From NCBI GenBank assembly GCA_030295235.1, contig AP026125.1, forward strand, positions 2,046,001-2,110,000: a stretch of 64,000 nt of DNA, in the 5' to 3' direction. Origin of the DNA: Fistulifera solaris (taxonomy: Eukaryota; Bacillariophyta; Bacillariophyceae; Naviculales; Stauroneidaceae). This document shows, piece after piece, positions 11,074 through 49,412 of the stretch. A program made the position numbers and the translations under genes. Numbering within the stretch: the first letter of the stretch is position 1; every line of letters starts with the position of its first letter. A model generated the notes under the pieces. That model was given only the letters and a program-made list of their open reading frames with translations. It was not told the DNA's origin and did no database searches.

Positions 11074-11886
11074 TCATCATGGATGCGCTGCAGTGATACT
11101 ATGATCATCTGTCATGAAGTAATGTCAAAAGGATGAGAAGGCCCAATAAGAAAGTGTTTCGGAGACGCCTGGAAAGGAAATGGATGGCGCATTTCAAGCA
11201 GCGTCGCAAAAAGCAAAGATTCTTCCTCTTGCACTATGCGCGTCCGTGAATTTTCCAATTCGTTAACCACAAAACGTGATCTACCTTCGTACTATAGTGC
11301 TTTGCATTCGTTGCGACACAGGAACGGCGATCGCTCATTTTTTCGATCTTTCGCTCTTTTCGGTTTTCGACGCTCACAAATAACAATAACAATAACAATT
11401 CGAGAATCGACGCTCACAAATCATCATAGCACCTTGACTTCATTCATTCGAGAGCAACCATAAGAAGCTCGCACCTCCATCATCCTTCCACATGGCATCT
11501 CGATTATCGTACTCGTGCGACCCACTCAATTGGGAAATTACAGTCGTCAAGAACTCCACCGGTTCTCGTTCGCCTCATCATACGAAACAAGCTCGGAACG
11601 GATGTTTCTCGAGTGTCAGTTCACCGTTTCGTAGCCCAAAGAGAGAAAACCCCAATCACTTTCGCTGGTCTACCGTACAAGAATCGGAAAATGTATTCTG
11701 TTTTCCGCGATCTTTGTCATCGCCCATGAATAATGCGACACTTGTTTCCGAGCACTCCTCGCGAAATGGACCCTTTCCGCACAAGGCGAAGTATAACAAC
11801 ATTAAGAACAAGAGCCATACTCGTCATCCGTCGAAAGTTTCCGTCTCTCTGAGACCGCCCAAGACGAAACCAGGGAAACGAACTAA
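11074..11886. other. Intergenic with an unsupported 170-codon frame
   Basis: Region between the kinase-like gene start and the orphan module. A 170-codon open frame (11492-12004, plus strand) begins with an ATG but its product is rich in S, P, K and R and I recognise nothing in it. It may be a 5' exon or UTR of the following module copy. A short AACAAT microsatellite lies near 11380-11400. Confidence 0.35.
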
Positions 11887-12225
11887 CAAAAGGGAAAGAA
11901 TACAAAGCCCGCCCCAGCTCCATCGCCGTCCGTCAAAACAACCTTATCTTCCATTCACTCGCTGGCCCCCGCTCGACCAAAGACTCCCTACAAATTCAAT
12001 CTGATGCGAAGAATGGTATGGATACGTCCCAAACCTGACGATAAATTCTGGATTCGAGGTAGAATCGAGAAGTGCGAGCAATCGCGGGTCGATGAAGTTA
12101 AAGAAAACGGAAAAGTATCGAGTACAGAAACGGTCTATCATGTCGTCAAATGCGCCGACGATGGAACTCTGTATCGCGTCCAGTTGCAACAAATGGAACA
12201 ATCAGAAAACCTGATCTGGTTGTAG
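11887..12225 (+). pseudogene. Orphan copy of the C-terminal Tudor-like module of the array
   Basis: A frame open from 11887 to the stop at 12225 encodes RRMVWIRPKPDDKFWIRG, RIEKCEQSRVDEVKENG and a final SENLIWL. This matches the last about 75 residues of the four truncated paralogs at 12.9-25.1 kb (consensus GRMVW-R-KR-x4-W-RG-RIEKCE, then ETV-H-KC). None of the MBD-like, PWWP, PHD or bromodomain parts precede it here. The upstream 170-codon frame at 11492 is in a different phase and I could not find a convincing intron joining them. It is therefore either the remnant of a fifth truncated paralog or a short stand-alone gene from which the others took the module. Confidence 0.6.
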
Positions 12226-12923
12226 CTTGTGTTGAAGAAAGCCCAACCTATGCTTATTTTCTTGATGTTGCTGCGTCGCGAGCAGGAAGAGAATTCTTTC
12301 GAGGCTATGAGTGCTTGTCTCGCGGATGAAGATTGAAGGTCTTGATACGCAAATAAACGCAACGATGCCACTTGATGTATGATCACTTCTTTTGTTCATT
12401 CCGTTTTTTAAATCATGTGAAATGTTTGAGTGTAGTTGTTGATCGTTATGACGGCCAGGTCAAAAAAAAGCAAAATAATTGTCTATAGTGAATCAATTCA
12501 TGCGACCCGATGCGACCTGGAATCATACTGGTTACTCCAACGCAAGGCGTTCTCTAGTCTACAATAGAATTTAAATCATGGCGTTTCAGACTACAGCAAA
12601 TTCATCTCTAGTTTTCTCGGATGCGTCCTACGTAAACGATGAAAAAATATCCTAATTTGGATTTGAATCGGTTCGTTTCGCTCTTAATTATTGCGGCAAG
12701 GCGTTCTAGATAAGGTACCTGATACGAGGTACGACTCGCAAAACTAATGGTGACCAAGATCCGAGGGAGATAGTTCGATGCGGATGCGACATGAAGAGGT
12801 ACACTTAATGCGACAATTTCGTCGCATGGCAAAAAAAATGTCTATCTTTTTATTGCGTTCTTCATTACCAGGTATCTTATTAGACCTACATGAACACATT
12901 TCGCATTCAAATAATCGAGCACA
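12226..12923. other. Intergenic, upstream of array gene A
   Basis: 698 bases with no supported gene. It should hold the promoter of gene A. Several GATGCGAC-type words (about 12500, 12780, 12810) recur, also seen upstream of the SET gene near 25430. Confidence 0.35.
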
Positions 12924-15900
12924 ATGAGTGAAAGTCAATCAAATCTTCCGCCTGAAATTCTTCGCGCTTACAAAGAAGCCAAGGAGAGAGGGCTACCGGA
13001 TGGCTGGGTTTGCTCGGTTGATGTGAGTGAAACCCGTCCTGTTCGGTCAATCCAGGTGGCTCTAATAAAACGCCCACTCTTGCTTTTATTTTCGTCGTAG
13101 GAACAACATCGCCGCACGTGGACATCTCCGGATGGCAGAACGTGTAACTCGGTGCGAAAAGCGCTCGAGATTGCGGCTGAAAGTGTACCTTTAACTGGCG
13201 TCGAGTTGGGAAAAGAAGTTCCTACTTTGAGGACTCCCAGTATAGTCAAAAGAGGGCTAGGGAAGACGAAAGACCAGGCACATTTTTAAGAGCATCAATT
13301 CCGGTAATTACGCTTTCTTCAGGGAATGCTGGAGGAGGAAGCGACAAAGATTGCAACGCCGGAGATAAAGAGAAAGGAAAACAACGTAGGCGGCCAAAGC
13401 CGCGTAGAGGGCGGGGTCGACCTAGGAAAACACCGAGTTTGTTAGAAACATCGTACACTGAAGAAACAAAGGGAAATACTGATGAAAACGAGTGGGAAAG
13501 AGACGAGGAGCCTCTGACGTCGCCTCCACCGCCCCTGGACCCCGAATATTCGTTGGATGGGAAAGATCATCCTACAGCACCCACCACGGTACATTGGGAT
13601 CCCCAGAGTGCAGACGGAAAGAAAATTGGGTGGAAAATCCGAGTAGCTCTCGATAGTACAACATGGGCCGAAGGCCGCATTGTTCGGTACGATCCCTACA
13701 CACACAAGCACAAAATTCGTTTGCAGCACAACGGAGAAGAACACTATGTTTGGATTTGGATCCGAAACAAACAGCATAACGTAAATCTCGCAACGCGTAT
13801 AGTATGGGCACACATGAAGGGTTATGCATGGTGGCCGGTCATAGTCATGGAGACAAATACTTATGATCCATTGACAATGCATGTTCAGGTAGAATATTTC
13901 GGATCTACGAGAAGAGCCAAAATACGAGACGTCGATCAATATATTCGGCCTTTTCATCCCAATGAGTGTGACCCAATCGAAGCGGGAATTGATATTATTC
14001 GTAACGCCTACGAAATAGCTTGTGTGGAATTCAAAACCATTCAGAAAACACAAAATGAAGCAGCGCTTTTCTACGCGGAAAAATCATTGCATCTTTGTGA
14101 TCAGAAAGCTCCGATGCGGATTGTCGGTAGGCGCGTCCAGGTGTTTCGAGATGATGTCAACTACCCATATGGTGATACTGTGGTCGGAACAGTCCGCAAG
14201 TACAGTGGCATTCAGAAAAAGTTCCTGGTCTCCTTTGAGGTATCGGAAAAGACCAATAGTAAATATGATGCAATGTGGATGACGCTCTCTACTCGCAATG
14301 CAAAGTTACAGGGTAAGCGCACTGCCCACGCTGAGGTTACACCGAAGGCCTTGGTCCCTTTCTTGGTCGGGTATCAAGCCGATGAATCAGATGAATACTA
14401 TAAACTTCTAAACGGCCACTGTCGTGCCTGCGTCGAGACATGGAAGTCGACAGACTCGCTTCGAGTAGTTTGTGATCAGTGCCATTCATCATTTCATTTG
14501 GGGTGCTTTGATCCGCCACTACAACAAGAGCAATATCAAAAGCTAGTCAAGGACGGCGCTCCCTTGTTGTGTCCGCAATGTACAGTATGTCGCGGCTGCT
14601 ACCAAAAGGACTCAACCTTTGGCAGTCATCAGCTTTCGCCAATACCCAATAACCTGAATTTTCCTGCTTATGAGACATTAAATGTCTGCTTGCCGTGTCG
14701 CGAAGCGTACGAAGAAGATCGATATTGTCCAAATTGCGCGCACACATTTGATGATGATCGATACAATGAAGTTCGGCAACAACATAATTGGTACAGCAGC
14801 CAAGACGGCTGCAAGCAAAGAACGGGACTGGTGGAAGACACGGAATTCCCTCTCGCCACCGGAAGGTTCTCCGATGATTGCACGATACCGCAAGGGCTAG
14901 AGGTACATCCGTCTAGATACTATCCAGAAAACACTGAGTTTGGTATGGCAGAAGCCGAAATGTTAGGGTGCGATTCTTGTGGAGGATGGGTACATGCGGG
15001 CTGCGCAAACTTGACCAGAGAAGAATATGAACAAATACTGAACGGAAATCACAAGCCTTCGGCGACTGGGCAAGAGTTTCTTTGCCGCGTTTGTTGTCGC
15101 AAGCGTTGTTTGAAAATTATCAAGGAGCTAAAATTGCAAGATCGCACAATGCTATTTTCTCAACCAATATCCCGAGTACAAGCGCCTATTTATCACGATC
15201 TGATTGAAGGCCCGGTTAATTTCAAAGTTTTTACTGATCGGGCACAGAACAATGACTATTTTTCCTACGCATGGACACGCGAGCTCTTCGAGCTAATGGT
15301 GTTCAATGCATTGTCTTCTTGTGGTAATGTAAGTCCTTTTTCCTTTGAACAAATGTAACCGCTATGTTGCGTTTCCTTACATGTGCACGAAGGACAAAGC
15401 TACTTGGAACGAAGCGAAGCATTTTACCTCTCTGGCTTAAAGAATGTATTTCAAAAGATTGGCAAGGTGCTCCACCCGGCGTTTATGACAAAGATATTCA
15501 GATTTTGCTTAAAAACGGCCAGAAACTACAGTGTCGCTCAGAGGTACATCGTGCTCGTGATGTCATAAGAGCGAAGAACGACGATCGGGCTTCTGCAGAA
15601 ATAGTACCTGCAGCTGGTGTTTCCCCTCTCAACGCAGCAGCAGTATTGAATGCCGACAGTGGTAGCTCCGATCCGATTCACGCGTCGCAGACATCTACTC
15701 CATACCACAGGAATATGGGGGGAGGGAACAGCAAGAACGGAAGGTCTGTTTCAACAGCGACAGGTCCTCCAGCGCAACCTAAAGCGGCTTACAACCAAAC
15801 TGCAGTCGGACGAATGGTGCTGTACCGCGAAAACGCCGACGAAATCTTTTGGGTTCGATGCAGGGTTGAGAAGCGTGAACAATTGCGTGTGGATGAGATT

Positions 15901-16029
15901 GGAGAAGACGGGAACATCTCGACTTGCGAAACAGTAATACATGTGATCAAATGCTGCGAAGATAGCAAGATATCTTACCGGGTGGACCTGGAGCAATCAG
16001 AACAGTTGAAGAAATTGATTTGGATATAG
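12924..16029 (+). CDS. Array gene A: MBD-like/AT-hook/Tudor-like/PWWP/PHD/bromodomain reader with C-terminal module
   Basis: Likely nuclear chromatin reader, about 960 residues. Exons: 12924-13022, 13101-13239, 13323-15328, 15393-16029; phases fit at every join (donor GTATAG at 13240). In order: MBD-like motif (GLPDGW and RRTWTSPDGRTCNS, residues 23-50), AT-hook RGRGRPRKTP, Tudor-like WAEGRIVRYDP, PWWP (IVWAHMKGYAWWP), PHD finger (HCRACVETW, HLGCFDPPL, LCPQC), a Cys-rich segment, a second PHD-like finger (CDSCGGWVHAGC), a divergent bromodomain and the Tudor-like end module. In the last exon the conserved sequence shifts frame twice (about 15423, where a T-run is one short, and 15466). It lacks the SET half of the 3'-most array gene, so no methyltransferase activity is expected. 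Mechanism is inferred from domains. Confidence 0.82.
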
Positions 16030-16536
16030 CTACCAGAGTACGTGTGTCCACGCTTTATTTTTCTAATAGACTGATGTTTGTTATTTTTCGTTTCCTGTTT
16101 TGGTTTGTTGCATTTGGTTTCGTACGAGCATTATTTTTAGCCATCCACTACTTAGAAGATCCTAATTTGGACATAAATCGCTTCGTTTTGTACTTGGCTG
16201 CAAAGTCAATAGTCAATAGATCCATCTCTTATTTGAAAGCAGACAAATTATTTCTGTGGTTTTCGATTGCCATCTTGTTCCTCCTAGTTTACTACTGTAC
16301 CAAGTACCAGGTAGGTTGCGTGCAACGACTTTAGTCTTCCTAGTTGAGTGCCGTTGTGTCACCGGTGCTGGTCTGATTTTTAGAGTACTGCGGTACCTTG
16401 TAATAAAACTCATTCTATTCATTCATTCGTCTTTTTTTTGTCCTCTTTCATTCATTTCAAAGTTTTGTTGCATAAACGCAGGTTTCATAGACTAAACTGC
16501 ACCAATACCAGCCAACACCGATTCGTTATTAGAATT
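16030..16536. other. Intergenic, upstream of array gene B
   Basis: 507 bases, AT-rich and pyrimidine-rich, with CATTCATTC words at about 16415-16455. It should contain the promoter of gene B. No gene recognised. Confidence 0.35.
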
Positions 16537-18085
16537 ATGACTGAGCAGTCGGACTTGTGCCCGGAGCTCAAGCGAGCTTATCGCGAAGCGAAGGCTCAAG
16601 GCCTGCCCGAGGGTTGGACCTGCCGCATACTAGAACACAAGGTAAGATCGATTGGCCCACGCGAGACAACAATAACTTATTGACTTTGCACTTCATTTTT
16701 TTAGAGTGGCAAAAGCGCCGCAGATGGGAAGCACCCACTACAGACAGCCGTAGATTACGTCGAATATGTCGATCAATTCCAGATGCGCTCGAGGTTTCTG
16801 TTAAGTTAGGTTTGCTTCCTCCTGATACGAAAATTATGCGGAAGAAATTAAAACGAACCGAGGAGCGGACAGGAAGAGATCTTCTTCAACAGGTTGCTCC
16901 GTCAACCGAAGCGTTTCCCACGCAAGCAGCAGAAGGGAAAGGCGATGACGGAAGAAAGGAGGTTTCGGTGGAAACGCGGCCCGTTCAAACAGCAAAAGTG
17001 CAAGATAAAGACAGGCTGATGGAAACGACCGCGGCGCGGACATCGAGAGAGCCCGGTAAAAACGAAGGAGAAGAGGGCGAACCTCAGACTAAAATTTCAT
17101 TGACGGCAGCTGTTTCATCGAAGCCTTCTGAGACGAAGCCAGCGATCCAAGAGAATTCAAAGCATACATCACCTCAAGCGCAATTGGTAGGCACGCACCC
17201 TACGCTGGCCGAAGAGCATCGTTATGACAGAAGACAGGATACTTTGCTGGAAACGACCGCCGCGCAAAAAGCAAAAGATCGAGTTGAAAATGAACGAAAA
17301 GAGGAAAACCCCCGAATCAACATTCATTGACGGCAGCTGTCCCATTGAAGCCTTCTGAGACGAAGCCAACGAGCCAAAAAAAATACAAAGCATACACCGC
17401 CTGAGTCACAGGTAATAGACGCGTCGCCAGCGCTAACAGCGGAAGAGCGAGGGGGAGGCGGAAACAAGGATGCCGTGATGGGAACGACTCCTTCGCAAAC
17501 AGCCAAGGGACGAGGTGACGACGTACGACAAGGGAATGCAAAACATACACCACCTAAGTCACGACTGATGGACACACACCTGACGCTGGCGAGAAGAGAG
17601 CAAGGTGAAAATGGAAGAAAGGGTTTTCTGATGCAATCGACCCCCGCACAAACAGTGAAAGAGCCAGGTGAAGACGAACAAAAGAGGACGACTCTCCGAA
17701 TAATTCAGGGATTACAACTCTTCCATTAATGTATTATGACTTGAAGACAGCAAGCAAAGAGGATACAAAGCATGCCTCCGCTCAATCACCGACGAAAGCG
17801 GATTTCTTGGCTCTTTCACACTTGTTGACGACTCCCAAACCACCGTACGGTCATAATGTGGTGGGACGAATGGTTTGGCTTCGACCGAAACGCAACAAGG
17901 AGTTCTGGGTTCGAGGGCGGATTGAAAAGTGTGAACTATTAAGTGTTTGCGAGGTTAAAGAAGATGGGGAAATTTCTCATAGTGAGACGACGCTTCATTT
18001 TATCCGATGCATGGACAATGATACGACGTACTTCAAAGTGAAAATACAACAGATAGAAAGCCCGGATAATTTGATTTGGATGTAG
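16537..18085 (+). pseudogene. Array gene B: MBD-like start and C-terminal module around a degenerate repeat, reader core lost
   Basis: First exon 16537-16641 matches the array 5' exon (GLPEGWTCRI). An intron to TTTTTTTAGAG leads to exon 2 at 16707 (WQKRRRWEAP, then SIPDALEVSVKLGLLPPDT). Instead of Tudor-like, PWWP, PHD and bromodomain parts, about 1 kb of diverged repeats follows, with recurring words such as SLTAAV, KPSETKP, KHT-P and ETTAAQTAK. The module closes the gene (GRMVWLRPKRNKEFWVRG..NLIWM). The frame breaks at about 17325 and in the A8 run near 17380, and shifts again near 17700, so it is either a pseudogene or an under-polished gene. The intact module at the end suggests the loss is recent or that selection persists on that end. 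Confidence 0.7.
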
Positions 18086-18656
18086 CCGGTATAGGGTAGG
18101 TAAAGACTATAAATTTAGAGGGTAGGGTCGGAGGTCGGAGTGTCAGTGGCCTTATGGAACTAGATTCCCCTACGGGAGTCTAAGGTTACGTGATTTCCAG
18201 GTAAACATGCGCGACATTTGCATCTGTTTTCTTATTCATGTTTAATGCTCCCATTAAAGTCCCTTTTTCAAATTTAGTCTCTATGCAGGCATGTGGAACG
18301 CCTTGAAATGATATAAATTGCTGTCGGACCCGAATTTCAGCGAGATCGAGGATGATTAGGTCCGCTTCGATAAAATTCCTACGAGGCCTACGTGAATTTC
18401 CCACAGACAATCGAAGCGTTCGATTCAAAGCGACTGTAATCATCCTGTATGTGAATGAGCAAGGTTAGGTCAAGGTATTACGGAGTATTACATTTAAGTC
18501 AAACCTACCTGGTACTCGTAAAGTGCACGATGGCGGATTGGACAATATCCGGGTACCCCTCTGTCGATAAATTTCCCTATCTGCGTTTTCTGTTGTGTTC
18601 TTACTTTACGGTTTCATTATATTGACAAGCTTTTTATATCAAATTCATCAAGCACA
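18086..18656. other. Intergenic, upstream of array gene C
   Basis: 571 bases between B and C. No gene or repeat that I can support. The ATG context and first exon of C that follow are nearly identical to those of A, but most of this upstream region is not. Confidence 0.35.
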
Positions 18657-21600
18657 ATGAGTGAAAGTCAATCAAATCTTCCGCCTGAAATTCTTCGCGC
18701 TTACAAGGAAGCCAAGGAGAGAGGGCTACCGGATGGCTGGGTTTGCTCGATTGATGTAAGTGAATCTCGTCCTGTTCGATCAGACCAGGTTGCTCTAGGT
18801 GTAATAAAACGCTCACTCTTTGTTTTTTGTCGTCGTAGGAACACCATCGCCGCACGTGGACATCTCCGGATGGCAGAACGTGTAATTCGGTTCGAAAAGC
18901 ACTCGAAATTGCGGCTGAAGTTGCTGCAGTCACTTCCGGAACGCATACTGAGTTAGGAAAACGAGATTGGGGGTGCGATAATCTATTTAGTCGGAAAATG
19001 GCGAAGATGGAGGGAAGGCACGCATCACTCTTTGAAATCACGCCCTCTCCAGAGATGGATGAAGAGAGTAGTGATGACGAAGACGACGGCAGAAGTAAAG
19101 TTTCACATGGGACATGTAGCGAAGAAAAAGAAGAGGAAGACGACGAACCTCTGAAGCCTCCGCCTACTCCATTAGACCCGGAATATTCGCTGGATGGGAA
19201 AGATCATCCTACCGCACCGACCACGGTGCATTGGGATCCTCAAAGTGTCGATGGCAAAAAGATTGGCTGGAAAATTATTGTCGCTCTTGACAACGATGAG
19301 TGGGCTGAAGGTCGCATCGTTCGTTATGATCCTTACTCGCATAAACACAAAGTTCGATTGCAGCACAACGGACGAGAAAACAATGTATGGCTGTGGATAA
19401 GAAATTTTCAACACAACGTGCACCTGGCAACGCGTCTGGTGTGGGCGCGAGTCAGGGGATATGCATGGTGGCCGGCCACGGTCCTGGAAGCAATTAGTTA
19501 TGATCCGTCGTCAAAGCAAGTACAGGTAGAATTTTTTGGAGCCGGCGAACGAAACAAAGTGATAGATTCAGATAAGTTTATTCGGCCTTTTGTCCCTCAT
19601 CAAGACGAATTGATTGTAACGAAAGGCGACAAAATTCGTGAAGCAAATGAGTTGGCTTGTAGTGAATTCAAGAAGATTCGGGAGATACGAAACGAAGCCG
19701 CGCTTTTTACGCGAGAAAATCGTTGCACCTTTGTAATCAAAAAGCGCCGATGCAGATCGTCGGTAGGCGCGTCCAGGTATTTCGAGATGGAGGCGACATT
19801 GTTGTCGGTAAAGTGCGCAAATACAGTGGATTCCAGAAAAAGTATTTGGTGTCTTTTGCTATGATGGAAGACCACAGCAATCAACACGATGCGGAGTGGA
19901 TGCTATTAAGTTCAGGTAATACAAAAGTGCTGGAACCGAGCAATCCGCAAGCTGAAATACCAATGGAGGCCATAGTTCCCTTTCTTGTCGGTTATCAAGC
20001 TGATGAAGCAGATGATTACTACAAACTGATAAATGAACACTGTCATGGCTGCGTCGAGACATGGGGGGAAACGGATACGCTTCGGCTAGTGTGTGATCAG
20101 TGCGATGCGTCCTATCACCTGGGATGCTTTGATCCGCCCCTACAACAGGAGCAATATCAAAAGCTTATCAAGGAGAAGGTCCCCTTATTGTGTCCGCAGT
20201 GCACAATGTGTCGTGGTTGTTACCAGAAAGACTCGACCTTTGGGAGTCACCAGCTTTCGCCAATGCCTAAGAACCTGAGCTTTCCCACGAATGAGACGCT
20301 GAATGTATGCTTGCCGTGCCGTGAAGCGTATGAAGTGAAACGATATTGTCCAAATTGCGCACACACGTGGGATGATGTGCGCTTTAACGAGGTGCGACAT
20401 CAGCACGATTGGTATGGGAGCAGGGAAGGTCGTAAGCGAAAGACGGAATTAGTGGAGGATACGGAATTTCCTCTCGTCATAGGGGCGTTTTCGGGTGACG
20501 ACAAAATACCCCACGGTCTCAAAGTCCATCCATCTTTGCACTACCCGGAGACAACTGAGTTTGGCATGACTGAAGTTGAAATGTTAGTGTGTGATGCGTG
20601 CGGTTCTTGGGTTCATGCTGGTTGTGCAAATGTTAGCGAAGAAGAATACGAAAAAGTCTCGGACGGGAAACACCCGTTATTTGGAAAAGAATTTCTATGC
20701 CGCGTTTGCTGTCGAAAGCGTTGTCAAGCTATCATTGAGGCTCTGAAAGAAGAAGATCGAATGATGATGTTTGCCCGACCAGTACCTGAAAGGGATGCTT
20801 CGAGTAACTGTAACTCCATCAATGGTCTGATGGACTTAAACATCATGAATCATGACAGAACACGCGGAGAACGGCCATTATTTGTCTTACGCGTGGACAC
20901 GAGAAATGTTTGAACTGATGGTTTTCCACTCGTTGTCGTTGTCCTACGTTCGGCGTGTAAGTGAACTTTGCTTCTGAAACTCGGAAATGGTCTGCGTATT
21001 GCTTCACTCACACGACCACAAAGGATACTGTCGCCTGGAATGAAGCGAAACATTTTTATCGGCGTGGCATAACTCATGTTTTTCGAACACTTGGAAAAGC
21101 CGCTCCGTCTAGTTCCTATAGAAAAGATATAAGAAATTTGCTCAAGATTGGTGAACGAGCCCGACTTGAAGAAGATGGCAGCGCCCGCGTTAGTGAAAGA
21201 GCTGAAGTTGATGATGTGGTCAACGATACCGGAGACATGGCACATGGGGTTGCGTTGGTTCCACTCAATACAAGAAAGGAGAATTCCAACAATTGCGAAG
21301 GAGGGGGTGACCTTTCAGATGATGCTTTGGATGTAGCTGCGTCGTCGACCCCAATCGAAAAGCAAGCGGCCGAGAACTGCTTTGTTGGGCAGGAGACCTC
21401 AGCAACTACAGCCACACAGGTGTTGTCTCCCCCAGCGACATACAAAGAAAATGTTGTGACCAGGGTAGTGATGTTTCGTGAAAAACGTAAAGATGAAAGC
21501 TGGATTCGGGGCAGAATTCAAGAATGTGAACAGGTGCAGATAAAAAAGCACAGCGAAGACGGAATCACGACAACCTGCGAAACAGTATATTATCATTTGA

Positions 21601-21695
21601 TTAATTGCTTTGACAAAGAACAAACTGTTTGCAGAGTGAATCTGCAGCGCTTGGAACAAACGGGGAGACTAATTTGGACGGAGGAAGTCAAATGA
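18657..21695 (+). CDS. Array gene C: chromatin reader paralog with C-terminal module, frame breaks
   Basis: Same architecture as gene A. Exons 18657-18755, 18839-20956 and 21024-21695. The first exon, intron 1 and start of exon 2 are almost identical to A. MBD-like motif, an acidic stretch (EEKEEEDDE), Tudor-like WAEGRIVRYDP, PWWP (LVWARVRGYAWWP), PHD fingers (HCHGCVETW, HLGCFDPPL; CDACGSWVHAGC), bromodomain remnant (WNEAKHFY), and the module ending GRLIWTEEVK. The AT-hook of A is not visible. Two breaks: one base lost near 19708 (CTTTTTACG where paralogs have CTTTTCTACG) and a 7-bp tandem duplication ATCATGA at about 20839-20852. The duplication is not a homopolymer change and looks like a genuine mutation. 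About 960 residues if continuous. Confidence 0.75.
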
Positions 21696-22045
21696 CGTGT
21701 GTGATTTCTGTGTTGCCGCTTGCCTTATTCGTTTGTTATTACGAGTAGCAAAGTTTAATTTACATGCTTCGTTGAATCAGTCAAGCGAATGCACATTATT
21801 TGCATCTACTTAGAAAAATGATGGTTCGCCACAGTTAAACACATAGTTGAGTACCGCTGTGATGATCCTTTCCGGCCTGTTTAACGCATAACCTTATACG
21901 GAGTAACGATGCGGATGATTTTGTTGGTTGAAAACAAAAAAAAACGCAACAAAAAAAATGCATTTGTTGAGTGTCAATAGGAAGTCTTTTTCATTGTATT
22001 TACTTGAGACAGCGAGGATACAAATGCTTTTATTTGAAATCTTGA
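21696..22045. other. Intergenic, upstream of array gene D
   Basis: 350 bases, AT-rich, with A-runs near 21935-21960. Presumed promoter of gene D. Nothing else seen. Confidence 0.35.
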
Positions 22046-25000
22046 ATGATGAACGGAAATCAGTCGAACATTCCTCTTGACATCATTAACGCGTATTGTA
22101 ACGAAAAAGTTGGAGGCAGTGCGGATAGCTCGACGTCTTCTATTGCTGTAAGTGCTCGCTCCGTAATAGGAGTCTTCCGGTTTCCCATTACCTGGTACTC
22201 TCAATTATTTCTTGTTTAATAGCTAGATTACTCACTCTATCATATTTGCAGACGCAGGGTCCCCTGTCCTCAGGCAACGATCGCTCATATAATGCAGTCT
22301 CGAAAACAGATCGAATCTCGGTTGACAAATCTTTGCTCCCGCCCAAGAAGCGGAAGCTCACTTCCGCCTTTTCCCCGGTTCAATCACCAGAGAAAAGAAA
22401 GACAGGGCGACCGCCGAAAAGAGGGCCGGGTCGGCCGCGAAAGACACCATTATTAGAAGCACCCGACGTTGAGCCATGCGAGGAGGAAAGTGACGAGAAT
22501 GAATGGGAATGTGATGACGATGAACCGCCGCCTCCTCCTCTGTTAGATCCGGAACACTCACTGGATGGGAGTGATCATCCGACAGCACCCACCACAGTGC
22601 ACTGGGACCCTCAAAGTGTCGATGGAAAGAAGATCGGTTGGAAGATACACGTCGCATTAGACAACAATAAATGGGTGGACGGACGCATCGTTCGCTACGA
22701 TCCTCACTCGCACAAACACAAAATTCGACTGCAGCACGACGGACGAGAGCACAATGTATGGATTTGGATCCGCAACGATCAACACAGCGTCCACTTGGTC
22801 ACACGGATGGTGTGGGCGCTGGTCAAGGGGTATGCCTGGTGGCCGGCTATGGTTAGGGAGACAAACAGCTACGATCCAGTGCAGCCATTGCAGGTGGAAT
22901 TTTTCGGGACGGGAGAGACGAGTGCACTGAGAGATTCTCCCGACTCGATCCGACCCTTTTCGCCGCATCAGTTGGATCCCCTGGTCGCGAAACACGATAA
23001 GAAACGGGACGACAGGGCGTACGAATTAGCGTGCGAAGAATATGATAACGTTCGGAAGACGAGAAATGAGGCCGCGCTGTTTTACGCGAAAACGTCGTTG
23101 CATCTTTGTGATAAGAAAGCTCCCATGCAGATCATCGGGAAACGTGTTCAGATTTTTCTTCCGGGTGGTGACATTGCAGTCGGGCAAGTGCGCAAATACA
23201 GCGGCTTACAAAAGAAATATCTTGTTGCTTTTGAAATGTCAGGAGATCCCGACAATCAATGTGAAGCGTCTTGGTTGACACTGAATACTCGTAATGCACG
23301 AGTGCTCGGAACTCACTCTCCCTACGCTGAAGTTGCACCGGAGGCTTTGGTTCCCTTTTGGTCGGTTACCAAGCCGTCGAATCGGATAGCTATTTCAAGC
23401 TACTCAACAACCACTGCCGTGGCTGCGTTGGGACATGGAAGAAAACAGATATGCTCCGGATAATATGTGACCATTGCGACGCTCCGTATCATTTGGGTTG
23501 CTTTGATCCACCATTGCAACAAGAGCAGTATCAACAATTGATCAAAGACGGTGTTCCTTTGTTGTGTCCGCAGTGCACTATGTGTCGTGGTTGTTACCAA
23601 AAGGACTCGACCTTCGGAAGCCACCCACTTTCACCACTGCCGGAGAATCTGAGCTTCCCTGCGAACGAGACGCTGAACGTTTGCCTGCCGTGTCGTGAAG
23701 CGTATGAAGACGAACGATACTGTCCTAATTGCGCACACACTTTCAATGACGATCGATATAATGAAGTGTTAGAGAGGCATGAATGGTATAGCAGTCGAAG
23801 GGGGCGTAAAGTAAAGACAGAACTTGTTGAAGATACGGAGTTTCCTCTCGTCATGGGAACGTTTTCAGGTGATGATAAAATTCCGCACGGGCTCAAAGTG
23901 CACCCATCTCTGTACTACCCCGAGACCTGTGAGTTCGGAATGGCAGAATCTGATATGCTAGGATGCGATTCTTGTGGAGCATGGGTTCATGCAAGCTGTG
24001 CAGGTGTCACCGAAGAAGAATTCGAACAAATATCAGAGGGGGGAGATCATATGTTTGCAAAGAGTTTCTTTGCCGAATTTGTTGTCGCGAGCGTTGCCTT
24101 GATATTATCGAAGCACTTAAAGAAGAAGACCGAACGGAGCTCTTTTCGCGACCCGTAATTGAAAGTGATGCACCCGATCACAACCCTAATTACGGACCAA
24201 TCGACTTGAACATAATGACAGAACGAGCAGAAAAAGACGAATATTTATCGTATGTGTGGACACGGGAAATGTTCGAGCTGATGGTGATGAACGCATTGAC
24301 TTCTACTCAACTCGTAAGTGCGACGAGAATATCTTGCCTGGCCTTACAGTGTACGGTGCTAATCTGCTCGCTCTCAATTGTAGGATACAGCCGCTTGGAA
24401 CGAAGCAAAGCAATTTTATCAATCTTGTCTCCGAAATGTTTTCCGTAAACTTGCAAAAGCTGCTCCGCCCGGACCCCATGAGAAAGATGTTCAAAAATTA
24501 CTGCACGATGATAAAGAAACGAAAGGTGAAGGAATACGGAAAGAAGACTTGATCGTTGATGAAGTAGTGCCAGTGGTTGCAATTGACGCTCCTTCTTTCC
24601 CTTCGGTTTCTTCCAAAGACCGGAAGACCACGAGGTCGACCTAGGAAGACGCCTCTTGTGACAGAAACTTTTCCTGCGCAAATCGCAGCGGGGGATAGCG
24701 AGGAGGAAGCTGATAGTACTCCATGTCATTCGCCGAAAGCGGTAGTGTCATCCAACCCACGCAAGACGAATTCCACGGGAAAGAATAGCAACGATCGGAA
24801 ACATGTGAATCCTATTCCACCTCAGCCACAGTTGATAGAAACCACCCGAGCGGTAACTGGTTCAGTCTTGCTAGAGCAACCGACACCGCCGTACAATCAA
24901 AATGTGGTTGGACGAATGATATGGTTCCGTCGCAAACGAGACAAACTTTCCTGGTTTCGTGGGAAAATTGAGAAATGCGAGGAAACGAAATCGCATGAGG

Positions 25001-25131
25001 CCGGAGAAGATGGAAGCATGTCAACGAAAGAGGTTGTGATTCACGTCGTCAAATGCGTGGATGCGGAAGAAACTTTCCACCGACTGAGATTGCAGCAAAA
25101 AGAAGAGTCGGGGAACTTGCTTTGGATGTAA
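22046..25131 (+). CDS. Array gene D: chromatin reader paralog with eroded MBD-like motif, frame breaks
   Basis: Exons 22046-22147, 22252-24313 and 24384-25131. The first exon aligns to the paralogs (NQSNIPLDIINAY) but the GLPDGW core is gone and the exon 2 SPDG core is also lost. An AT-hook-like RGPGRPRKTP, acidic stretch, Tudor-like WVDGRIVRYDP, PWWP (MVWALVKGYAWWP), PHD (HCRGCVGTW, HLGCFDPPL), second finger (CDSCGAWVHASC), bromodomain (PVIESDAPDH, TREMFELMVMNAL, WNEAKQFY), another AT-hook (GRPRGRPRKTP) and the module (GRMIWFRRKRDKLSWFRG..NLLWM) follow. The frame shifts at about 23358 (T-run one short), 24057 (A-run one short) and near 24610; the last could instead be a short intron ending CCAAAG. 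Likely a nuclear reader without methyltransferase activity. Confidence 0.74.
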
Positions 25132-25526
25132 TCGAACTAAATAATTAGACTCATTACGTCCATTTCTTGGGGATCGGCATGTCGTCCCGATATCATCAGG
25201 AAGTCCCTTCGTTACTACTGCTCCATAGGATCTACAATTGTATGGATTAGACTAGATTGTGCTGTTATGGCCTCGAAAACGTTGATTGCTATTGGCCTAA
25301 AGCTAAAGGACTAGAGATCATGGGAATTGAGAGTCACTAGTCAAAGTCATCGAGTGAGTCACGCATTGACTGTCACTTCAAGAGTGCGATCGAGTTCTCC
25401 GCCGCGCCGCCGCGACGACAACGATGCGATGCGATGCGGCAGCGAAATAAAAAGGCGGCCCATTTGATCGCATCTATCTTTCATTCATCCTATTTATAAC
25501 CTTTCTAACTGACTCGAAAGTAAACA
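25132..25526. other. Intergenic, upstream of the SET gene
   Basis: 395 bases. A GC-rich patch at 25400-25445 contains GATGCGATGCGATGCGG and CGCCGCGCCGCCG, unlike the other array spacers, and is followed by CATTCATCC and AT-rich sequence before the start codon. Presumed promoter. Confidence 0.4.
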
Positions 25527-28500
25527 ATGAGTGAGGATCAGTCCGACCTTCCTCCCGAAATCATCAACGCTTATCGCGAGGCAAAGGCCAGAGGTCTCCC
25601 CGACGGCTGGACCTGTTCTATTGATGTACGTGAGATTCTGATGCCTGTGCTCTTTGTTAACGGCGAGCCCTAGTCTCCTTCTCCTTTTCTCGTATACTCA
25701 ATCAATTACTTTATTTTGCAGAAACGTCATCGCCGCAAATGGACGGCTCCGAACAACGGTCGATCGTGCGACTCGATTCCGAAAGCACTGCAAATTTCTG
25801 TCGACTTGGGTTTGCTTCCTCCGGACACTGTAATTGAATCAGGAAAGCGAAAGCGAACGTCGGGGGATACAGGTAGCCGAAAGAAAGCAAAGGATGGAAG
25901 ACGACGAGGCCGACCGCCCAAAGCATCTTCAGCAGCGGAGACACTTGATGCCGAAGAGCCAGAGGAGCAATACAGCGAAGAAGAAGAGGAGGGAGACGAC
26001 GAGCCTCTCAAGCCTCCTCCCCCTCCATTAGACCCGGAGCATTCTTTGGATGGTAAGAATCATCCTACCGCACCCACCACGGTGCATTGGGATCCCAAAA
26101 GCGCCGATGGGAAAAAGATTGGCTGGAAAATTCGAGTCGCTCTCAATAGTACGACATGGGCGGAAGGCCGCATCGTTCGCTACGATCCCTACACACACAA
26201 ACACAAAATTCGACTGCAACACAACGGACGAGAACACAATGTGTGGATTTGGATCCGCAACGATCAGCACAACGTGCACGTGGCGACGCGGATGGTGTGG
26301 GCCCACGTGAAGGGTTATGCCTGGTGGCCGGCCATGGTCATGGAAACGAACACCTATGACCCGGCGCAGCAACTGAGAATTGAGTTCTTCGGAACAGGAG
26401 AAGTCAGTACGCTTCGGGATTCGCCCGAGTCGATTCGTCCCTTCTCGCCGCACCAGTTGGATCCCATTGTCGCGAAACACAAGAAGAAACGCAATGCCAG
26501 GGCCTATGAGCTGGCCTGCGAGGAATACGAGAACATTCAAAAGACGCGAAATGAAGCAGCGCTCTTTTACGCGGAGAAGTCATTACATCTTTGCGATCAG
26601 AAAGCTCCGATGCAGATCGTCGGTAGGCGCGTCCAGGTGTTTCGAGATGATGTCAACTACCCCTATGGTGATACTGTGGTCGGGAAAGTTCGTAAGTACA
26701 GTGGCTTCCAGAAAAAGTTTCTCGTTTCTTTTGAAGTGTCGGAAAAGACCAACAGTAAATATGATGCAACTTGGATGACGCTCTCTACTCGCAATGCAAA
26801 GTTACAAGGAAAGCGTACTGCGCACGCTGAGATTACACCGGAGGCCTTGGTCCCGTTCCTCGTCGGTTACCAAGCCGATGAATCGGATGACTATTACAAA
26901 CTGCTAAATGATCACTGCCGTGGCTGCGTCGAGACATGGAAGAAATCGGATACGCTTCGGGTAGTATGCGATCAGTGCGACTCGTCCTATCACTTGGGAT
27001 GCTTTGATCCGCCCCTGCAACAGGAGCAATATCAAAAGCTAATTAAGGAGGGGGTACCTTTGCTGTGTCCGCAGTGCACAATGTGTCGTGGTTGTTACCA
27101 GAAAGACTCGACCTTTGGAAGTCACCAGCTGGCGCCAACGCCTAAGAACCTGAGCTTTCCCGCGACTGAGACGCTGAATGTATGCTTGCCGTGCCGTGAA
27201 GCGTACGAAGTGGAACGATATTGTCCCAATTGCGCACACACGTGGGATGATGTGCGCTTTAACGAGGTGCGACATCAGCACGATTGGTATGGGAGCAGGG
27301 AAGGTCGTAAGCGAAAGACGGAATTAGTGGAGGATACTGAATTTCCTCTCGTCATGGGGGCGTTTTCTGGTGACGACAAAATACCCCACGGTCTCAAAGT
27401 CCATCCATCTTTGTACTACCCGGAGACAACTGAGTTTGGCATGACTGAAGTTGAAATGTTAGTGTGTGATGCGTGCGGTTCTTGGGTCCATGCTGGTTGT
27501 GCAAATGTTAGCGAAGAAGAATACGAACAAATCTCGGACGGGAAACACCCGTTATTTGGCAAAGAGTTTCTTTGTCGCGTTTGCTGTCGAAAGCGCTGTC
27601 AGGATATTATTGAGGCTCTGAAAGAAGAAGATCGGATGATGCTATTTGCCCAACCAGTCTCTGAAAGAGATGCTCCAAACTATCACGATCTCATCAAACG
27701 ACCGATGGACCTGAAAACGTTGACAGAACGGGCGCAGAGCGACGAATATCTATCTTATGCGTGGACAAGAGAACTTTTTGAGCTTATGGTGATGAATGCA
27801 CTAACTTTCAATCGCTTCGTAAGTGGTTTGATTTGATTTCGCTTGTCAGCTGTACAATGTGCCTAACCCGACCGGCCCGCTTTTCATAGTATACTGCTGT
27901 TTGGAATGAAGCGAAGAGATTTTACCACTCCAGCTTAAAGAATGTTTTTCAAAGAATTGGTAAGGCTGCACCACCTGGTCAGTACGAAAAGGCAGTTCAA
28001 AAGTTACTCAAAGAGGGTGAAGAAGCACGACGTCAAGAAGCAGATCGCGTTCAGGTTGACGAAACAGTAGAGAAAAAGGATTTAGTTGCTGGGAGTATGG
28101 CAGTTGCGATTGATTTGCCTCCTATCCGTTCTTCAGTTCCAGACCAATCTTCTTGTGTACCTTTTCTGGAAGTCGAAGTCACAACTGTGGACGCATTCTA
28201 TAATTGCTGGATGGATGCTTGCTTTACTTGCGGAAGCTCTGGTGCTTCGGACACGATGCTATTTTGTGTAGATTGTGGCGAGGCTTTTCACGCTTTCTGT
28301 GCCAACGTTCCCATTCACAGTATGAGTGAGGCGGCGGTAGCTGGTTGGAGATGCCCTAATTGCAAAATTTGTGAGATTTCCGGCGATGTTCCAGCGGACG
28401 ACACTCAAATGATCTTCTGCGAGATGTGTGATCGGGGCTTCAATTTGGGGATGCTTGATCCGCCCTTGACTAAAAGCTCCACCCGGTTTGTGGGTGTGTG

Positions 28501-31401
28501 GGCAATGTTTGGATTGTCAGTTTTGTCGCAGCACATCCGAACCAGCATCGCTGAAATTCTGGTCTCGACACACAGACATTTGCTTTCGGTGTGGTGGTTG
28601 TGATGGCTTCTCAGACACAATGGAAAAGTGTAAAGTCTGCAGTGGGCTGCTGCGAGAAGCGGATACCGATTTTGTTGTATGCGATACATGTTCTGCGAAA
28701 GTTCACACAGCTTGTGACCAAGAAGCGTATGACTTTTCCCAGACATCGGCATCGCGGACCCAACGAGTTACTCGAATCAAGGTAAAATCGGATTTGTTCT
28801 TTGACTTCACACAGGATTCCACAAAACCTGACATCGTTGTCTCCGGTTGCAGTACTCTTGTCCTTCTTGTCCTCGTCTTATCGCTCCCGATGCATTAGAT
28901 GCTGACGCTGATCGAAGCTTATTGCTAAAAATCGCTCGTTCGAGCGCAGACTGTTCAGAGAAGCTATTGGATAGCATCATATGGAAAACGCACGACATGT
29001 GGAGAGATGAGTATATTGGCATTATTAACACAGGTATTCGTTTGGTCGAACAAACCCGCCGCGACTTGGGTGATCCGCGATTTGTGGCTCAACAAATTCT
29101 TGCAGATGGAGCCGACGTCTGTATGTCAACAATTCAAAGAGCGCTTCGCTTTTGTCATGTTGTGAAACGCCGCAGAGTAGTTGAGCGTGGGTGTAGATCA
29201 TCGAGCATCGAACACACTCTACTCTATGCTAAGATGGCAGCTTCATTTATAGAATTATCATGCCAGGTTCTTCGACGCAGTGTGAGCAAAGAGGTCGTGC
29301 ACTACGATCGACTTTTAGAGTTGTTAAAGCCGCCAAATCAACAAGGCGTCTTTTTGGCACCATTAGACCCTCTCCGCTATCAGCCAGTCTCGCTTTCTGA
29401 TGAAAACATCACTGATGTGAATCTCTCCCTGCATGTACGGGTGGCAGATGTTGCAGATCCTGAAAATACAAAGAATGCTCATTTGCAACCTGCAGCACCT
29501 CTCTGCGGTTGGACAGAGCAGTTGGGTCAAGGTCGAAATCAAAGTGAATGGAAAGACCCTCGTGAATGCTGCCTCTGTCATATTTGTGGAGATGTCGATG
29601 CCGGCTTCCAAGACGAGGAACCCGACGAGGCCCCTGAGGGTGAAATAATCTTTTCACCTATGGGTCGGTTATTGCCTTTGAAAGACGGTTATTGGGTTCA
29701 CACTTCTTGTGCGTTGTGGAGCTCTGAAGTTTTCGAAGCTCCATCCGATGGGAATTTACATGCTGTCGAGAAAGCCAGAAGCCGGGGAGCTCAGTTAAAG
29801 TGTTTTGGTTGCGGAAGACCAGGTGCCACAGTCGGATGCTGCAAGAGCAATTGTCCATATAATTACCACTTCACCTGCGCAAAAGTCTGTGGGGCTGTCT
29901 TCACTCGCGAATCAAAAAGTTTTTTGTGCAAACCACAAAATGCACGCAACCGAAATTGTCGCTAAGGAAAGCTTTGAACCAATGAAGAGTTTAATTGTCG
30001 CCGGAGAGAAAAGGAGCGCCGTAAACGACTTCGGAGACAGGAGAATGGGAGACATGCTTACGGTCGGAGCCCTGACAGTTCATTCTCTAGGAAAGATTGA
30101 CCCGGATTCGGATAATTTTCACTCGGAAAATTACATAACGCCGCCCTGGTTATATTGCGACGCGTATTTTTGGTCGATGAAAGATCCTCGAGCAAGGACA
30201 GTTTACGTTTTGAAGGTTTTCAAATTACCTGACGGTCGGGCTGAGTTCGCGATAATTCCAGGAGACGACCCAACGTCGACGATTCGCGCAAATTCAATTT
30301 CGTCAGCTGCACACGACGTTCATGGACCGATTAGCGTAAAGTTAATTTTGATTGTTTTTCACAAGGTGACCTACTGTCCCGCCTTCCGATGACTCGACGA
30401 TCTCGGAAGAAAACATTTGGCCTCAATGGCCCACAGGTATGTCGCTGAATGAGATACATTTACCTCAAACGAAATCCGCTGACCTTTTTCGGCTTTTTAG
30501 TTTTTTTGGTTTTGGGCTCGATTGCATACGTAGAAAGCTGGAGACCCTGCCTAACGTTGAAGCCGTTGTTACGCCGCTAACTCCCAACTTCACTTCTTAC
30601 CGCTTTTGTTTCCAGCCAGCCAGATATTGAAACAGTCATGGCATTGCACCGAAAACGAGCCGCTGCTCATGCTGAGCTTGCTCTAGAAAATGCTAGTGGC
30701 TGTGCTCGTACCGAGGGCATAAAAGCTGTTGCTCGTAGTGGTGGCAGCGGGAGAATTACTCGAGCTCTGGTCCGAAGTGCAGAAGAAGTGGAATCCAATA
30801 CTACATCCCAGTCGAAGCGGACAGAAGACCGCGCTAAAGCTGACCGAAATATGTACCAAGTCAAGTACAAGCGAATGAAAAGCGTCCCGATCGAAGAGCG
30901 TCTAGCCGCCCGTCGATCTCATATCCACGGATGGGGTCTTTTTACGAAGATCGATATTCGCAAGAATGATCCTATCACCGAGTATATGGGCGAAGTGATT
31001 CGACAAGCAATTAGCGACAAGCGCGAACGTGCTTATGAGATCTCCGGGGAGGGTAGCTGTTACATGTTTCGGCTGGACTTGCAGCGCATTGTGGATGCAA
31101 CCAAAATCGGTTCCATGGCACGGTTCATGAACCATTCCTGCCAGTCGAATGCGTACGCTAAGATCATCAATGTGGATACCGATCAGGGCATGGACCAGAA
31201 AATTGTTGTTTTTGCCTCTCGAGACATTGCTGCGGGCGAGGAAATCACGTATGGTACGTTTGTTTTGGGTTCATCTGTGTCGTCTCTGTACTTGTTTCTG
31301 AATAACTCAATTTGCCTTGAACAGACTACAAATTCCCTGTTGAAGACGGCAGTCTCAAATGTACTTGCGGAGCACCCAATTGTATCGGCCGATTGAACTA
31401 G
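25527..31401 (+). CDS. Array gene E: trithorax/MLL-like SET-domain histone methyltransferase
   Basis: Likely nuclear H3K4-type methyltransferase, about 1790 residues, six exons: 25527-25625, 25722-27818, 27890-28781, 28853-30436, 30620-31253, 31325-31401. In order: MBD-like motif (GLPDGW, RRKWTAPNNGRS), AT-hook RRRGRPPK, acidic stretch, Tudor-like, PWWP (MVWAHVKGYAWWP), PHD, Cys-rich segment, PHD, bromodomain (RDAPNYHDLIKRPMDLKTL), further PHD fingers (CFTCGSSGASDTM; CEMCDRGF), extended PHD (CHICGDVDAG..HTSCALW..CFGCGRPGATVGCC), FYRN/FYRC (GALTVHSLG, FGLNGPQ), SET (HIHGWGLF, NHSCQSN, EEITYDYKF) and post-SET CTCGAPNCIGRLN. The split SET codon joins correctly at 31253/31325. Frame slips at A4 28472-28475, the A5/T6 run at 29914-29925 and G2 at 30365 are all homopolymer-type. 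Substrate is inferred from the trithorax-type domain set. Confidence 0.88.
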
Positions 31402-38798: not shown

Positions 38799-39833
38799 TA
38801 GTTCCCGAATATCAAGAGCGTCCAAAGCATTTTACAACATGATCCAGTACACCAATTCCAGAATATCTGGAATGTGCACGAATAGGTCAAATTCTGGACC
38901 AGTCACACAGAATTTCTGGCTGACACAAATCCACGGATTCCAGATTTTCTGGAATTTGCAGAAACTTGTAGTAATTCTCAAAGCACCAGTTTCCGAATAT
39001 CAGGAATGTCCACAGAATATTTACATGATCCAAAACACCGATTAAAGAATATCTGGAATGTGCACGAAATGTCTGTTTTTTTTGACTCGAAACAATTGGT
39101 CCAGATTTTCTGGACCAGTCACACAGAATTTCTGGCTGACACAAAAGCACGGATTCCAGATTTTCTGGAATTTGCCGAAACTGGCTGTAATTCTCAAAGG
39201 ACTAGTTTCCGAATATCAGGAACGTCCAACGCAATTTCACATGATCCGAAACACCGATTAAAGAATATCTGGAATGGGCACGAAATGTCTGTTTTTTTGA
39301 CTCGAAACAATTGGTCCAGATTTTCTGGACCAGTCACACAGAATTTCTGGCTGACACAAAAGCACGAATTCCAGATTTTCTGGAATCAGCAGAAACTGGC
39401 TGTAATTCTCAAAGCACTAGTTTCCGAATATCAGGAATGTCCACAGAATATTTACATGATCCAAAACACCGATTCCAGAATATCTGGAATGTGCACGAAA
39501 TGTCTGTTTTTTAAAAACTCGAAACAATTGGTCCAGATTTTCTGGACCAGTCACACAGAATTTCTGGCTGACACATATTCACGGATTCCAGATTTTCTGG
39601 AATTTGGAGAAACTGGCTGTAATTCTCAAAAACCTAGTTTCCGAATATCAGGAATGTCCTCAGAATATTTACATGATCCAAAACACCGATTCCAGAATAT
39701 CTGAAATGTGCACGAAATGTCTGTTTTTTAAAAACTCGAAACAATTGGTCCAGATTTTCTGGACCAGTCACACAGAATTTCTGGCTGACACAAAAGCACG
39801 AATTCCAGATTTTCTGGAATTTGCACAAACTGG
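38799..39833. repeat. Tandem array 1: about five units of 215-217 bp built from CCAGA..TCTGG hairpins
   Basis: The anchor TTGGTCCAGATTTTCTGG recurs at 39096, 39311, 39528 and 39745, with a shorter diverged first unit from 38799. Each unit holds at least three perfect small inverted repeats: GGTCCAG-ATTTT-CTGGACC, ATTCCAG-ATTTT-CTGGAAT and ATTCCAGAATATCTGGAAT, plus CAGAATTTCTG. The long open frame over the units (39006-39704) is a by-product of the repeat and I do not call it a gene. The 38528-38798 stretch before it is Lhcf 3' flank without a feature. Confidence 0.9.
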
Positions 39834-39977
39834 ATGTTGCTTCGCTGTCGACGAGATCGCATCCACCATGATGCGATTATATTTCCGTTACAAGTATACC
39901 GTCCTTTGCCATCTTTATTGCCGTGTCATAAACTAGCAGCTATCTCTCTCTTTCCGCTTCTTTGAGTTTCCTGACAT

Positions 39978-43950: not shown

Positions 43951-44693
43951 GTCATCACAGAATTTCTGTATGACGGCAAACACAGATGGTCCAGAATTTC
44001 TGGACCAACCACAGATTTCCTGCAAATTCATGATCGCAAACACCGATTCCAGATTTTCTGGAACGACCATAACAGAATTTCTGTACGACTGCAAACACAG
44101 ATGGTCCAGAATTTCTGGACCAGCCACAGAATAGGATCGCAAACACGGATTCCAGATTTTCTGGAAAACAAATCACAGAATTTCTGTACGACTGCAAACA
44201 CTGATGGTCCAGAACTTTTGGACTAGCCACAGAATAGGATCGCAAACACCGATTCCAGATTTTCTGGAAATTAATTCACAGAATTTCTGTACGACTGCAG
44301 ACACGGATGGTCCAGAATTTCTGGACCAGCCACAGAATAGGATCGCAAACACGGATTCCAGATTTTCTGGAAAATAAATCACAGAATTTCTGTATGACTG
44401 CAAACACAGATGGTCCAGAATTTTTGGACTAGCCACAGAATAGGATCGCAAACACCGATTCCAGATTTTCTGGAAATTAATTCACAGAATTTCTGTACGA
44501 CTGCAGACACGGATCGTCCAGAATTTCTGGACCAGCCACAGAATAGGATCGCAAACACGGATTCCAGATTTTCTGGAAAATAAATCACAGAATTTCTGTA
44601 GGACTGCAAACACAGATGGTCCAGAATTTTTGGACTAGCCACAGAATAGGATCGCAAACACCGATTCCAGATTTTCTGGAAATTAATTCACAG
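43951..44693. repeat. Tandem array 2: seven units of about 103 bp in 206-bp dimers, same hairpin family as array 1
   Basis: The word CACAGAATTTCTGTA recurs at about 103-base steps (first step 114). Each unit has GGTCCAGAATTTCTGGACC and ATTCCAGATTTTCTGGAA hairpins. From about 44200, units alternate between a TTCTGGACCAGCC and a TTTTGGACTAGCC form, giving a higher-order repeat of about 206 bp. Minus-strand frames of 92 codons repeated here are by-products. It abuts array 3 directly. Confidence 0.9.
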
Positions 44694-49216: not shown

Positions 49217-49412
49217 TTTTCACGTCTCCAGAAAATGTGGGAGTGTGGATTTTCAGGTGTCCAGAAAATATGGGAGAATGGATTTTCACGTGTCCAGAAA
49301 ATGTGGATGAGTGGTTTTTCACGTGTCCAGAAAATGTGGGCGAATGGTTTTTCACGTCTCCAGAAAATGTGGGCGAGTAGGTCTAGAGTTTTTTCACGTC
49401 TCCAGAAAATGT
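49217..49412. repeat. Minisatellite, six 33-bp units
   Basis: CCAGAAAAT recurs at 49228, 49261, 49294, 49327, 49360 and 49402 (steps 33, 33, 33, 33, 42) within TTTTCACGTGTCCAGAAAAT. As 33 is a multiple of three all frames run open, but no protein is supported. It lies just upstream of the plastid membrane protein gene. The rest of 49073-49529 shows nothing else. Confidence 0.85.

Follow-up and report, generated by a model that had tools for sequence, protein, structure and literature searches.

A tandem array of SET-less, chimeric paralogues beside a KMT2-type gene of the diatom Fistulifera solaris

A trithorax-type gene that is preceded by four incomplete relatives of itself raises the question whether these copies are mere remnants of duplication or encode proteins with a role of their own. 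Such an arrangement is located in Fistulifera solaris on a 64,000-nucleotide stretch of contig AP026125.1 (C5:2046001-2110000, henceforth the window), where four copies, A to D, are followed by the full-length gene E. A first-pass annotation of this DNA had attributed the copies to a local duplication that produced reader-only paralogues. The present analysis supports this origin and adds protein-level constraint on the reader core of copy A. With moderate confidence we propose that the duplicated reader half of a KMT2-type gene gave rise to putative chimeric, non-catalytic chromatin binders. The species is described as an allodiploid with paired, diverged chromosomes in 42 homoeologous pairs (PMC5935921), and a genome assembly of 51.7 Mb in 61 contigs was searched. 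Matches to the SET domain recurred across contig pairs in the whole-genome search, for instance C1/C2, C5/C6 and C11/C12. The gene order of C6 equals that of C5, and collinear stretches longer than 1 kb are 79-88% identical.

Gene E and its four neighbouring copies

Gene E encodes PWWP, PHD, PHD, bromodomain, PHD cluster, extended PHD, FYRN and SET in this order. The SET domain was recognized by Pfam with an E-value of 3.7e-23 and had KMT2A as its top match in the PDB (3.6e-31), while Pfam values of 1.1e-12 and 2.8e-11 were obtained for PHD and zf-HC5HC2H, respectively. The trithorax-like combination of PHD, FYR and SET that had been assigned to E was thus recovered in the form of SET, FYRN and extended PHD, with FYRN present on both contigs; FYRC was not found at E<=0.01 among the pieces scanned, the FYR region being frame-broken on C5. 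With respect to these domains E is a KMT2/trithorax-type gene and a predicted methyltransferase for lysine 4 of histone H3 (H3K4). The end proposed for E at position 31401 agrees with its stop codon as read from the sequence, and the last exon reads KCTCGAPNCIGRLN, which we take to be a post-SET-like ending. A search with exon 2 of E yielded 78 proteins at E<=0.001, many of which stop right after NALTFNR and therefore suggest a conserved intron at this place among the homologues; the few proteins with an organism name were all from diatoms (a Bacillariaceae metagenome-assembled genome and Fragilaria crotonensis).

Two irregularities were observed within E. One extra A in an A-run of exon 3, at window positions 28471-28474 and at about 1963399-1963403 of C6, shifts the frame within a PHD finger, at a site across which the relative P0083 reads in frame; it may represent either a real +1 site or an assembly error that recurs on both contigs. 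In the FYR region of C5 (window 29906-30333), comparison with C6 revealed 7 frame-shifting indels in 525 bp, partly as compensating pairs, and the C6 version agrees with relatives; the C5 version may reflect poor local consensus or real damage.

Four homologous blocks of direct repeats are spaced by about 3.4-5.6 kb; one of them belongs to E and three to the copies. Since the blocks share 60-88% identity in repeat families that extend to 300 bp, the array is not due to chance. The search of the whole genome with exon 2 of E resulted in 27 rows, 18 of which fall into the array or its homoeologous stretch; the remaining 9 are weak (at most 26.9 bits) and restricted to the bromodomain part. Gene limits of A, C, D and E were deduced from reading frames, GT/AG signals and alignment to E (Table 1). 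Copies A, C and D follow the exon plan of E and its order of Tudor-like, PWWP, PHD, PHD and bromodomain segments, and the splice sites of introns 1 and 2 occupy equivalent positions in these copies and in E, apart from the intron-1 acceptor of D, which is displaced by a few bases. Copy B comprises only the N-terminal part, a linker and a C-terminal module. The 5' exon previously regarded as common to all copies was confirmed in A, B, C and E and was not found in D at E<=0.01, and the array does not start at 11887 as had been supposed, because positions 11887-12222 represent the end of the separate gene Z.

None of SET, FYRN and extended PHD was detected in A to D, consistent with the earlier statement that the copies end before these parts of E. 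The sole array row of the whole-genome SET search belongs to E, and the Pfam scan detected no SET in the 3' exons of the four copies. Homology to E ends early in exon 3, from where A to D continue into a common module of about 85 residues that terminates all four copies and is absent from E. The copies are therefore chimeras and not plain truncations, as had been assumed.

Reader domains and the C-terminal module

The retention of reader domains was counted at 174 near-invariant positions in 21 orthologue rows that included E, with the other-source sequences P0002 (A) and P0003 (D) left out. The first Tudor-like segment preserves 26-27 of its 27 positions, the first PHD 17-18 of 18 and the second PHD 22-24 of 28; these ranges hold for A on either contig, C and D. 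The proposed reader order is supported for PWWP, PHD and bromodomain, which score above the Pfam cut-offs in E, A and D (the copies represented by P0002 and P0003, C not being part of the scan); the PWWP domain reached 33.9 bits in A and 43.2 bits in D at a cut-off of 25.6. The AT-hook did not stand up in the same way, its scores lying under the Pfam cut-off in E and D and a gap being present at that place in C, and the Tudor-like assignment corresponds to weak matches below the cut-off.

The bromodomain deviates from this pattern. Of its 34 positions, 9 are lost in A on C5, 10 in A on C6, 12 in C and 10 in D, and one is lost in E on either contig; a Fisher test of bromodomain loss versus the rest gave p values of 0.064, 0.011, 0.005 and 0.018 for the four copy sequences in this order. 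Residue 697 of E is asparagine in 20 of the 21 orthologue rows and is replaced by C, Y, S and T in A on C5, A on C6, C and D, respectively. This residue is the second N of NALTFN, which we take to be the acetyl-lysine-anchoring asparagine. One premise of competition with, or guidance of, E at the same chromatin thereby fails. Since the bromodomain of A is still constrained, with a ratio of nonsynonymous to synonymous substitution (dN/dS) of 0.19 (0.07-0.43), and the anchoring asparagine is replaced, the data suggest that the domain is kept as a fold and that acetyl-lysine reading is lost.

The C-terminal module also ends gene Z and makes up most of the stand-alone protein of 111 residues encoded by gene Y. 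Constraint is strong on Y and weaker on Z and on the module of A (Table 1). A profile search of a protein database, with scoring confined to the 8000 candidates that had the most words in common and to limited lengths, yielded four matches. One, the module of A, is encoded by the window itself, and two match 3' exons, one that of C (99%) and the other that of A. The fourth, P0080, is a further member that comes from a different public contig, and in it E-like exon 3 sequence passes into the module in one frame. The module has no significant Pfam match (a single weak one among six members, 0.18) and no significant PDB match (best E-value 0.11, a nanobody); it is a candidate new chromatin-associated domain. 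Scans of prokaryote and viral contigs revealed no relatives. A protein search with exons 3 and 4 of E returned no frames of the same species, which is uninformative in view of the limited lengths and the gene calling.

The N-terminal domain was also considered as a methyl-CpG-binding domain; this received no support, the only matches being weak ones to DUF7028, WW and DUF4106. The linker of copy B contains a direct repeat (window 17080-17382) with a spacing of 227 bp, the second unit being out of frame.

Selection, gene conversion and the homoeologous contig

Indels and dN/dS were compared between the C5 and C6 homoeologues, and two out-of-frame checks (the second part of E exon 2 and SET) were left out of the dN/dS rows. 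The reader core of A contains one frame-shifting indel in 1952 aligned bp (0.51/kb), a rate resembling that of exon 2 of E (one in 2094 bp) and of ten neighbouring open reading frames that had been picked for clean frames (8 in 9658 bp, 0.83/kb). Five other neighbouring frames showed 2.2-5.5 indels/kb and gene Z 2.80/kb, intergenic DNA 89 in 3518 bp (25.3/kb) and the introns of E and A 13 in 454 bp (28.6/kb). The dN/dS value of A is 0.17 over 645 codons, or 0.14 over 594 codons in a second estimate (bootstrap 0.10-0.18), and amounts to 0.19 and 0.20 in the parts flanking the conversion tract. The low indel rate along with these ratios indicates that the reader core of A has been retained as a protein on C5 and C6 alike, though less strictly than E.

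Sequences from other sources bear on the reading frames. P0002 is 99.2% identical to A over 717 residues and continuous through the reader core, P0003 shows no difference from D in the 588 residues compared and is continuous in frame, and P0082 crosses both interruptions of the 3' exon of A, with a break of its own farther on. Because these sequences lack some of the one-base breaks, such breaks most likely represent sequencing errors or alleles. Copy C is probably broken, since its 7-bp duplication is unlike a homopolymer error and no intact frame of C was found among the proteins matching exon 2 of E. A scan for frame switches common to C5 and C6 recovered mainly overlapping or antisense frames.

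On C6 only A is full-length and in register with C5. Copy B is represented there by a match of 47 bp at the place of the 5' exon of E, and a remnant of D lies beside a further remnant whose nearest relative is C (72%). Synonymous divergence (dS) is about 1.4 for the pairs A-E, C-A and D-E and 0.65 for C-E, the latter value being lowered by conversion. Since eight homoeologous neighbouring open reading frames differ by a dS of only 0.12-0.40, the duplications are dated by these sequences as older than the subgenome split. Gene conversion operates between E and the copies: tracts were delimited by at least 97% identity in 60-bp windows (Table 1), and segment trees switch in line with them. The converted part of A resembles E, and transfer from E to the copy is therefore the simplest direction to infer.

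Table 1. Features of the array and related genes (window coordinates unless stated otherwise)
Feature	Position	Strand	Remarks
Gene Z	11492-12225	+	separate gene; dN/dS 0.185 over 112 codons; one frame interruption per contig
Copy A	12924-16029	+	exon 1 12924-13022, exon 2 13101-15328, exon 3 15393-16026 + stop; N-terminal domain, AT-hook-like, Tudor-like, PWWP, Tudor-like, PHD, PHD, degenerate bromodomain, C-terminal module
C-terminal module of A	15775-16026	+	dN/dS 0.23 over 84 codons
Copy B	16537-18085	+	N-terminal domain, repetitive linker, C-terminal module 17831-18082; about 3 frame interruptions
Copy C	18657-21695	+	exon 1 18657-18755, exon 2 18839-20956, exon 3 21024-21692 + stop; without AT-hook
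7-bp tandem duplication in C	20842-20855	+	ATCATGA twice; shifts frame within bromodomain; insertion relative to E
C-terminal module of C	21429-21692	+	
Copy D	22049-25131	+	exon 1 22049-22147, exon 2 22252-24313, exon 3 24384-25128 + stop; N-terminal domain degenerate; one open frame in P0003
C-terminal module of D	24877-25128	+	
Gene E	25527-31401	+	exons 25527-25625, 25722-27818, 27890-28781, 28853-30436, about 30501-31253, 31325-31401
Conversion tract, 5' ends of A and C	25517-25619		
Conversion tract A-E on C6	E-equivalent 26574-27243	+	
Conversion tract C-E on C5	E 27214-27527	+	at least 97% identity
Gene Y	C5:2196435-2196767, C6:2078668-2079000	-	dN/dS 0.055

Outside the array, the window contains tandem arrays at 38892-39837, 44032-44695, 44695-45410 and 49217-49373 with units of 217, 103, 220 and 33 bp, respectively; the first two have a common ATTCCAGATTTTCTGGAA-like core.

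Competing explanations and relation to known systems

The explanation that we favour with moderate confidence comprises several putative steps. The reader (5') half of a diatom trithorax/KMT2-type gene would have been duplicated in tandem before the subgenomes diverged, and its 3' half would have been swapped for a short C-terminal module that is also found in small separate genes. The chimeric gene would then have been duplicated again, with stretches homogenised with E by conversion, and A would be a protein-coding gene on both contigs. The copies would bind chromatin via the kept Tudor-like/PWWP/PHD block; having lost the later PHDs, FYR and SET they could not methylate, and without the bromodomain asparagine they would not read acetyl-lysine in the usual manner. 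The C-terminal module would serve something that E does not do. The copies may thus be non-catalytic proteins that sit on, or mark, some of the sites of E. As part of this explanation, and with the same moderate confidence as the whole, D would be functional or recently so on C5 and dead on C6. The competition with or guidance of E at the same chromatin that the first-pass annotation proposed is putative. Tentatively, and with less than even odds by a clear distance, the copies may be a family of lineage-specific, catalytically empty KMT2 chimeras whose C-terminal domain is undescribed. Gene conversion would keep them similar to the reader block of E, so that they would follow the chromatin targets of E and, without recognizing acetylation, dampen or divert H3K4 methylation.

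Several observations weigh against this explanation. Retention is uneven, with 20-26 of 27 positions kept in the PWWP domain and only 10-14 of 16 in the second Tudor-like segment of the copies, and the concentration of losses in the bromodomain is not significant for A on C5. The dN/dS value of A is about three times that of E (0.05 over 596 codons), and frame-shifting indels are more frequent in the 3' exon (4.89/kb) and the 5' part (3.11/kb) of A than in its core. In this assembly the frame is interrupted three times in A, about three times in B, twice each in C and D and several times in E (both contigs), and A is also interrupted on C6. None of the sequences contains the whole chimeric A in one frame, as P0002 extends no farther than the bromodomain exon and the frame of P0082 is broken in the linker. 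The D remnant on C6 is inverted, lacks the middle and carries 6.5 and 8.5 frame-shifting indels/kb. A derivation of the module from the Tudor-like or PWWP segments of E was rejected for want of support, as hhalign gave probabilities of 1-5% and showed no kinship.

Some of these observations would be expected if the copies were decaying duplicates of E, that is, pseudogenes without a function of their own. Such decay fits the frame interruptions that affect every copy in this assembly, the 7-bp duplication of C, the degenerate bromodomains and the D remnant on C6 with its C-like neighbour. The breaks alone are no mark of a dead gene at this locus, however, as E is similarly interrupted, and the core of A combines a dN/dS of 0.14-0.17 with an indel rate far below that of intergenic DNA and introns. 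Furthermore, the core of A and the whole of D are continuous in other assemblies, even though D and E have diverged to a dS of about 1.4, and we therefore regard decay as an unlikely explanation. That the array is an assembly artefact, with one gene split or multiplied, is highly improbable. The many one-base indels of this assembly could be taken in its favour, but the copies differ by a dS of about 0.65-1.4, A recurs on C6 in register, A and D are present on 30,868-bp contigs from an NCBI source, and the 3' exons of C and A on 46,964-bp contigs from a JGI source. Assembly collapse or multiplication as the origin of the copies was rejected on these grounds.

The copies could also be separate reader subunits that work with E rather than independent or competing binders, in the manner of the SET-less gene LPT of Drosophila, which encodes the reader part of a KMT2-type protein (PMC6128892). 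The adjacency of the copies to E and their homogenisation with it by conversion are in line with such a partnership, and in Drosophila the N-terminus of MLL3/4 has its counterpart in LPT and the C-terminus in Trr (PMC6128892). A partner role is nevertheless doubtful, as E has its own PWWP, PHDs and bromodomain and needs no outside reader half. LPT/Trr is the closest known case, since in both systems a reader part resides in a gene without SET; LPT and Trr are two ends of one protein, whereas in the diatom both halves remain in E, to which the copies are additions that differ in their C-terminus and have a defective bromodomain.

With respect to other known systems, E resembles the KMT2/trithorax (MLL) proteins in its extended PHD, FYRN and SET, the SET domain having its best solved relatives in KMT2A, in 6chg (an enzyme specific for H3K4) and in KMT2B, and the PHD cluster of its homologues finds its best match in KMT2D. 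E differs from these proteins by the upstream PWWP, Tudor-like segments and bromodomain, an arrangement found also in diatom homologues, and A to D differ by the lack of detected SET, FYRN and extended PHD. The nearest solved bromodomains to the E family are those of BRD7/BRD9, TAF1 and peregrin, whose conserved acetyl-lysine asparagine is missing from the copies. Catalytically empty paralogues that act as competitors form a general class, with which the copies share kept binding modules and a missing catalytic part; they differ in being chimeric, and competition is putative here. Polycomb and trithorax proteins of microalgae were reportedly surveyed by Zhao et al. (2020). A literature search found no array of reader-only KMT2 paralogues in diatoms, although an earlier mention remains possible.

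Reader-only genes derived from KMT2 are already known in animals, and the diatom array adds a variant. With up to four reader-only copies in one subgenome and one full-length copy in the other, both within the same cell, the locus represents a natural test of the reader half of a trithorax-type protein alone. As ribonucleoprotein genome editing of both homoeologues has been reported for F. solaris (PMC13276009), removal of A on both contigs along with mapping of H3K4 methylation is feasible.
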